Below, piece after piece: positions 31,408 to 32,623 of a stretch of DNA of 37,097 bases (its first letter is position 1; each line of letters begins with the position of its first letter). The DNA comes from an uncultured Oligoflexia bacterium. Lineage in GTDB: Bacteria; Bdellovibrionota; Bacteriovoracia; Bacteriovoracales; Bacteriovoracaceae. The stretch lies in contig CATLVU010000013.1 in NCBI GenBank assembly GCA_950061135.1, positions 1-37,097 of the forward strand, read 5' to 3'. The notes under the pieces were generated by a model. It was given only the letters and a program-made list of their open reading frames with translations, searched no databases and was not told the DNA's origin. The position numbers and the translations under genes were made by a program.

Positions 31408-31599
31408 ATGAAATCTCAAAAACATAATACAGGTGAATTAGCTAAGCTTGAAGTTGAAATAGAAAAGAAGCTTATTGAGGATCTTCAAACAATGTCTAAA
31501 AACTCAGAGCTATCAATTGATGACTTAGTAGCAATAGCAGTGAAAAGATTCAAATCATCTCATGCTGATTATATGGGTATTGATTTAGATTATCCTTAA
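31408..31599 (+). CDS. Small ribbon-helix-helix-like protein
   Basis: LEVEIEKKLIEDLQTMSKNSELSIDDLVAIAVKRF, beta-alpha-alpha pattern; 63 aa. Confidence 0.5.
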   Translation: MKSQKHNTGELAKLEVEIEKKLIEDLQTMSKNSELSIDDLVAIAVKRFKSSHADYMGIDLDYP

Positions 31600-31636
31600 A
31601 AAGCAGTGTAGAAATTATTTCATATCCTGTTTAATC

Positions 31637-31664
31637 TTTTTACACACTTTATCTAGTGTAAAAA
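31637..31664. promoter_or_regulatory. Dyad 1: TTTTTACAC-N10-GTGTAAAAA, candidate activator site
   Basis: Perfect 9-bp inverted arms (31637-31645, 31656-31664), about 72 bp upstream of the -24 element. Confidence 0.5.
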
Positions 31665-31682
31665 AAACAAACACCCACCATG

Positions 31683-31700
31683 AATTACACTATAGTAATT
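31683..31700. promoter_or_regulatory. Dyad 2: AATTAC-N6-GTAATT, candidate activator site
   Basis: Perfect 6-bp inverted arms; shares TTACAC with dyad 1. Confidence 0.4.
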
Positions 31701-31735
31701 ACAGTATCTTAAAGCCTATTTAGGGAACTTTCTTT

Positions 31736-31752
31736 TTGGCATGCTCGTTGCA
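31736..31752 (+). promoter_or_regulatory. Sigma-54 (-24/-12) promoter
   Basis: TTGGCATGCTCGTTGCA; GG and GC separated by exactly 10 nt, close to TGGCACG-N4-TTGCW. Confidence 0.75.
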
Positions 31753-31777
31753 TTATATATTGCCAGAGGAGAGTACA

Positions 31778-32623
31778 ATGAAAAAGTTAAAGAAATTTAT
31801 GATTGGTTCAGGATTAGTAGCTGCGGCATTAGTTGGAGGAACAGGTTTTTATAATTCAAATCAAATGAATGACTTAGCTGTTTTCAATCAGGATCACGGG
31901 ATTAAATTTGCTAAAAGATTAGATGAAATGAACGGTGAATTTATCGCGGGAAATAGAGCTGCTGCTTCAGTTCCAACTGAAAATTGGAAGCCACTTACAG
32001 TTAAAGAGAGTAAAAAAGTGGCAAAAAAAGAGACAGTAAAAACTGAGTCGATTAAAGAAGTTGCAAGTAATATCCCTGCTCCTGCAATTAACGATCTTCG
32101 AGAAACAAAATTAACTGCTGCCTTAGTAAACAAAAAAGCTCTCCAAGTAGGAAAAGATGTTTATGGAACAGTTGAAGTTGTAGATGGTGTTATTGAATCA
32201 TTACATGTAACACTTCCTGGTGGTAACAGAATTGATCTATATGCTAATGAGAGAATGGTTGGAAATGTTTTTCAATACGAAGATACTCATACGGGTGAAA
32301 TGAAAAGCGGACTTCTTTATGAAGTTGAAAAGGGCAAAAAATATATGGTAACTCTTGCAAATGATTCTCAGTTTCCAGGAGCGAGACTTGAGTTTGAAAC
32401 AAATGGTGCTGAGATTGCTTACGGGCAAGATTACTATGAAAAGCAAGAGAGTTGGAATCTTAATTCTCAAAACGAAGATGATAACTATGCAGTAAATGCA
32501 GATGTTCAGCAAGAGCAAGACGTTTATGAGAGTGAAAATCAATACAAAGAAGAAAACTTAAACGAGCAACAAGAGCAAAACGATACAGCAAGTTTTAAAT
32601 TTAATTTCAATGCAAGTGTATAG
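31778..32623 (+). CDS. Secreted/exported hypothetical protein, acidic Q/N-rich C-terminus
   Basis: Track start at 31736 (TTG) lies in the sigma-54 promoter; ATG at 31778 follows AGAGGAGA and gives signal-like MKKLKKFMIGSGLVAAALVGGTG. Confidence 0.7.
   Translation: MKKLKKFMIGSGLVAAALVGGTGFYNSNQMNDLAVFNQDHGIKFAKRLDEMNGEFIAGNRAAASVPTENWKPLTVKESKKVAKKETVKTESIKEVASNIPAPAINDLRETKLTAALVNKKALQVGKDVYGTVEVVDGVIESLHVTLPGGNRIDLYANERMVGNVFQYEDTHTGEMKSGLLYEVEKGKKYMVTLANDSQFPGARLEFETNGAEIAYGQDYYEKQESWNLNSQNEDDNYAVNADVQQEQDVYESENQYKEENLNEQQEQNDTASFKFNFNASV

Follow-up and report, generated by a model that had tools for sequence, protein, structure and literature searches.

A conserved sigma-54 control region upstream of an exported-protein gene, and its predicted regulon in Bacteriovoracaceae

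The window, the whole 37,097-nucleotide stretch of DNA that was analysed, carries a gene for a 281-residue protein, preceded by a compact block of putative regulatory elements. The features of this locus are as follows.

31408–31599, + strand: small conserved ORF of 63 aa ending SSHADYMGIDLDYP; the same C-terminus is readable 5' of the promoter in several orthologs
31627–31645: upstream palindrome copy 1, CTGTTTAATCTTTTTACAC; 13.8 bits (matrix from 21 orthologs), 0 of 200 shuffles as high
31637–31664: dyad 1, TTTTTACAC-N10-GTGTAAAAA; right half of copy 1 plus left half of copy 2
31656–31674: upstream palindrome copy 2, GTGTAAAAAAAACAAACAC; 13.0 bits (same 21-ortholog matrix), 0 of 200 shuffles as high
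31683–31700: dyad 2, AATTAC-N6-GTAATT; present, at chance level
31696–31711, + strand: IHF-like element TAATTACAGTATCTTA (13-mer TTACAGTATCTTA at 31699–31711), from ortholog conservation
31737–31752, + strand: predicted sigma-54 -24/-12 promoter TGGCATGCTCGTTGCA; GG and GC invariant in 21/21 orthologs
31763, + strand: predicted transcription start, from spacing (12 nt after the C of the -12 GC) and ortholog conservation
31765–31771, + strand: Shine-Dalgarno sequence AGAGGAG, from the sequence
31778–32623, + strand: regulated gene, 281 aa; orthologs begin at ATG 31778; AlphaFold model

The initial annotation had proposed a sigma-54 promoter with exact GG-N10-GC spacing. As expected for this class, the site reads as TGGCAYR-N4-TTGCW, with GG at 31738–31739 and GC at 31750–31751, and it is the sole exact match to TGGCAYN5TTGCW in the whole window. 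The genome encodes a single copy of rpoN, and upstream activator sites lie about 60–150 bp from the start. Sixteen sites matching TGGCAN6TTGCW were found in the organism's own genome, against 2 for a reversed-pattern control. A sigma-54 site with 10–12 of 12 consensus letters lies just 5' of the ATG at all 22 ortholog loci (21 distinct), and the promoter is kept despite the other orthologs' proteins being only 18–43% identical to P0001, the window gene product. Alignment of the 21 promoters also revealed a conserved AT tract after the -12 element and GGCA around -2 to +2. Judged by this conservation, 31737–31752 is almost certainly a functional sigma-54 promoter of this Bacteriovoracaceae-type bacterium, as proposed, and it is a real element retained family-wide.

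The ORF track had placed the start at TTG 31736, which, as the initial annotation pointed out, overlaps the -24 element; its proposal that translation begins instead at ATG 31778, after the Shine-Dalgarno sequence, also stands. Ortholog alignments begin at this ATG, and the leaders vary in length and do not keep frame. Together these observations settle the start-codon question for 31778, and TTG 31736 was rejected. Matches to the product were found in 20 of the 116 genomes searched (own genome included), and more orthologs of the gene were recovered by DNA pattern alone (L085, L087, L090, L111, L128, L132, L140 and L141). In the protein, an N-terminal membrane helix (residues 2–32 in the model) is followed by a variable linker, then by a small beta domain at about residues 104–212 (AlphaFold domain pLDDT 86, pTM 0.76) and lastly by an acidic tail ending FNFNASV; inspection by eye showed no obvious cleavage motif. 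The product has no Pfam or NCBIfam match, and a structure search found nothing significant in the PDB (best E-values 0.007 with the full model and 0.024 with the domain). The model suggests that the product, earlier described as secreted, is exported but probably membrane-anchored. The earlier prediction that expression of this exported protein is conditional appears right on the sequence. The 63-aa ORF at 31408–31599, with its SHADYMG-type conserved C-terminus, lies outside the promoter.

A de novo search for palindromic motifs in the 150 bp upstream of 21 promoters yielded a 19-bp palindrome, cTGTCTAAAaTTTAGACAg, in 21/21 distinct orthologs, with a log-likelihood of 161 compared with 31±3.3 (maximum 39) in 30 shuffled sets. 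Its position relative to the -24 element varies among orthologs from 28 to 111 bp, mostly 60–100 bp, so plain ancestry of aligned DNA does not account for its recurrence. Two perfect inverted repeats, centred 87 bp (dyad 1) and 46 bp (dyad 2) upstream of the GG, had originally been taken as the enhancer sites. Both repeats are present and the notion of upstream enhancer sites holds, but the binding unit is better described as the 19-bp palindrome in two copies. Dyad 1, with perfect 9-bp arms, is improbable as a chance repeat (1000 dinucleotide shuffles, P=0.018). Dyad 2 is no more than chance would produce (expectation 0.8; P=0.55 for one or more) and overlaps the IHF-like element; a comparable dyad at that distance occurs in only one ortholog, L004, and we rejected it as a binding site. 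Were the promoter and dyads no more than chance similarities in AT-rich DNA, a chance-level repeat such as dyad 2 taken alone would be in keeping, but conservation in 21/21 orthologs refutes this for the promoter and the palindromes, and we assign the idea a negligible probability. The palindromes themselves are very probably the regulator sites of the exported-protein regulon described below. Their (C/G)TGTC sequence presumably resembles the sites of PilR-type regulators.

Between the activator sites and the -24 element lies a further conserved element, TAATTTCAgttacTT, which resembles the IHF consensus. In most orthologs it is found 40–41 bp upstream of TGGCA, and in a few at 30–31 or 51 bp, spacings that differ by about one helical turn. 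The motif gave an EM log-likelihood of 90, compared with 45±3 in shuffles, and the mean ortholog match to WATCARN4TTR was 7.5/9 as against 6.8±0.13 in shuffles, the window's own best being 7/9. Three IHF/HU-family genes are present in the genome. Taken as a whole, 31627–31777 reads as a complete sigma-54 control region.

The same arrangement recurs elsewhere. The pattern TGTCTA-N5-TAGACA followed after 40–100 bp by TGGCAN6TTGC is present in 34 of the 112 related genomes, with 0 for the reversed control, and scanning 85,000 species genomes yielded at least 80 stretches, mostly from Bacteriovoracaceae, Halobacteriovorax and other Bdellovibrionota. An export-type N-terminus, called by a simple hydrophobicity rule, was found in 55 of 71 downstream ORFs among the non-Bacteroidales matches listed, compared with 132 of 312 neighbours (p=8e-8). 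Pfam assigned the listed downstream ORFs to subtilases (4), class-III aminotransferases (3, not exported) and PLD-like proteins (3), with single S41, M15, transglycosylase and Lnb_N matches; most have no family. The products are mostly exported, and comprise proteases, lipoproteins and PLD-like enzymes. The class-III aminotransferases, without export signal, follow regulon-type promoters in L094, L119 and L155 and are outliers. In the own genome, 6 of the 16 sigma-54 sites have a palindrome about 40–110 bp upstream and precede mostly exported products (a subtilase, a lipoprotein and other exported or membrane proteins), while the sites without a palindrome presumably answer to other activators. 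By its sequence, the window promoter reads as part of an exported-protein regulon of the Bacteriovoracaceae.

About ten of the listed scan matches are Bacteroidales stretches located before TolC- and MacB-like genes; these were set aside as belonging to a different regulon. In L082, L084, L092, L101, L106, L108, L114, L134 and L157 the palindrome and sigma-54 site stand at near-constant spacing, and an unrelated activator with a similar site is probably responsible.

We then asked which protein might read the palindrome. Among the sigma-54-activator-like proteins encoded in the own genome, the best-linked candidate is P0002, a GAF-AAA+-Fis protein (G000:C33:576-2078) that is near-universal in the family and has the PF00158 AAA+ domain and Fis helix-turn-helix of bacterial enhancer-binding proteins; it carries a GAF domain in place of the receiver domain that, together with a PilS kinase partner, marks a PilR-type regulator. 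With a matrix learned from the window gene's orthologs only, the palindrome was found in 26 of 29 P0002-type promoters (3.7% expected), at two fixed places: on the TTGTAA -35 element and 34 bp upstream of it. Promoters of two control regulators, the L039 and L046 types, were essentially without sites (3/24 and 1/24), and both were rejected as palindrome readers. In the own-genome P0002 promoter the palindromes score weakly (6 bits at -35), and the promoters of out-of-family P0002 relatives have none, which indicates that P0002 autoregulation is a family trait and that another protein could bind those sites. The P0002 helix-turn-helix has no other strong match in the family genomes, the next being the L046 type at about 50% identity, and no active paralog with this helix-turn-helix was found in the family genomes searched, although the own assembly is 88.6% complete and one could be missing there. 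From these sequence relationships P0002 likely binds the palindromes, and it probably also binds and represses its own sigma-70-type promoter. By eye, the P0002-type genes L166–L195 show a further conserved palindrome, approximately TTACGC-N2-4-GCGTAA, between the sigma-70-type -10 element and the start codon.

P0002 differs from a working activator in its AAA+ domain. The GAFTGA loop, which contacts sigma-54, is deleted, and Walker B reads LNN instead of the LDE associated with ATP hydrolysis, while Walker A is kept; P0002 is therefore a relative of bacterial enhancer-binding proteins and not a functional member of their class. GAFTGA or GSFTGA is kept in 9/9 out-of-family relatives and, within the family, in G038 and G027. 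In the tree, the losses fall into two clades, one with the deletion (19 rows, support 100/100) and the other with a substitution (18 rows, 99/95). The loop was lost twice, by two routes, and palindrome-sigma-54 promoters persist in genomes from each of these clades. Given these losses and the persistence of the promoters, we infer that P0002 cannot be a conventional activator: either a partner has to supply the ATPase or P0002 has to act as a repressor. Neither the regulon nor its GAFTGA-less linked regulator had been recognised in the initial annotation. A second family-wide AAA-Fis regulator, L046 (G000:C18; orthologs L221–L244), adjoins a flagellar rod gene, and its own-genome copy also lacks GAFTGA. 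At G000:C86 (L047:1000-2892) an open frame runs from the N-terminal region of an L-arabinose isomerase (PF02610, E 1.6e-85) into a GAF-AAA-Fis regulator that likewise has no GAFTGA, which is either a real fusion or an assembly join.

These data allow us to propose a mechanism. The two 19-bp palindromes, with centres near -127 and -98, would be bound by a dedicated regulator, most likely P0002, the IHF-like site near -58 would bend the DNA, and RNA polymerase-sigma-54 would occupy the -24/-12 element, with transcription from about 31763 and translation from ATG 31778. P0002 would most likely supply DNA binding and signal sensing and, since it lacks the GAFTGA loop and the Walker B DE, another AAA+ protein with an intact GAFTGA most likely provides the ATPase, through a mixed ring or recruitment. 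Conservation establishes, at the level of sequence, the promoter, palindromes, IHF-like site, start codon, regulon, P0002 autoregulatory sites and GAFTGA loss; from these we infer the binding of P0002 to the palindromes and the partner protein. The model as a whole is reasonably probable, while on the choice of a partner ATPase over repression our judgement is evenly divided. We also suggest, more tentatively and at less than even confidence, that one protein reads the DNA while another remodels sigma-54, that the regulator's ATPase was disabled twice independently and that the exported-protein regulon is probably part of the predatory or surface programme. At L040 (G000:C8), the gene for a GAFTGA-positive response regulator stands between a histidine kinase gene and lspA (lipoprotein signal peptidase), all three on the same strand, which hints at a link between sigma-54 control and lipoprotein maturation; from this context we guess that the response regulator L040 is a candidate partner of P0002.

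Two other readings of the regulator have to be weighed. P0002 might act as an anti-activator, holding the palindromes and its own -35 region and keeping the regulon off, with a different GAFTGA-positive protein activating from the same sites once P0002 leaves, or from solution. The lack of GAFTGA and Walker B would fit such a role, as would the palindrome that overlaps the -35 of P0002 itself, a repressor position, and in Caulobacter the NtrC protein, which has no GAFTGA, controls sigma-70 promoters and acts as a repressor of some genes (PMC10274813). However, palindromes mostly 60–110 bp upstream with an IHF-like site between have the geometry of activator sites rather than occluding ones, and the family genomes searched yielded no further regulator sharing this recognition helix. 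We consider this account somewhat improbable.

It is less probable still, and in our view unlikely, that another activator, for example of the response-regulator type with an intact GAFTGA, reads the palindromes and that P0002 is simply one of its target genes. Candidates exist, as six other AAA+ regulators in the own genome keep GAFTGA or GSFTGA, and L040, in its kinase-regulator-lspA operon, has relatives across the family. Against this, the two other regulators tested across orthologs (3/24 and 1/24, above) have promoters without the palindrome, and no other own-genome regulator gene has one close upstream. Moreover, the out-of-family P0002 relatives keep a near-identical helix together with an intact GAFTGA, and two of their genomes, G097 and G108, carry the palindrome-sigma-54 pattern. 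The model in which P0002 reads the palindromes and a partner supplies the ATPase is the one we retain.

With this regulon the Bacteriovoracaceae would gain a sigma-54 system with a readable address code, from which unknown exported genes can be listed from DNA alone. It also provides a natural setting in which to ask whether an activator relative without GAFTGA can function at sigma-54 promoters, where that loop is held to be required. Published work on BALO regulation that we found concerns FliA and RpoE-like factors. In the literature covered, neither the palindrome CTGTCTA-N5-TAGACAG nor any sigma-54 regulon of this group was described, which is weak evidence as few subscription journals were covered.

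The view of sigma-54 as a controller of the cell exterior (Francke 2011, PMC3162934), in a text without mention of Bdellovibrio, is alike in describing a regulon of exported and envelope proteins. Canonical sigma-54 promoters with activator sites and IHF, of the NtrC, NifA and NorR type, share the -24/-12 element, the pair of palindromes at about 100 bp upstream and an intervening IHF-like site; they differ in that the linked regulator here, P0002, lacks GAFTGA. GAFTGA-less relatives elsewhere have been reported on sigma-70 promoters or judged not to be sigma-54-linked (PMC10274813, PMC3162934). Among these, Caulobacter and Rhodobacter capsulatus NtrC, TyrR and V. cholerae VpsR have AAA+ loop 1 deleted or altered and the DNA-binding domain kept, as in P0002, whereas the sites matched to P0002 precede conserved sigma-54 promoters. 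Finally, although the partner of P0002 is putative here, the hetero-oligomeric FleQ/FleT, HrpR/HrpS and VnfA paralogs (PMC7277832, PMC9542535) offer a model of how a partner ATPase might act on promoters of the sigma-54 type.
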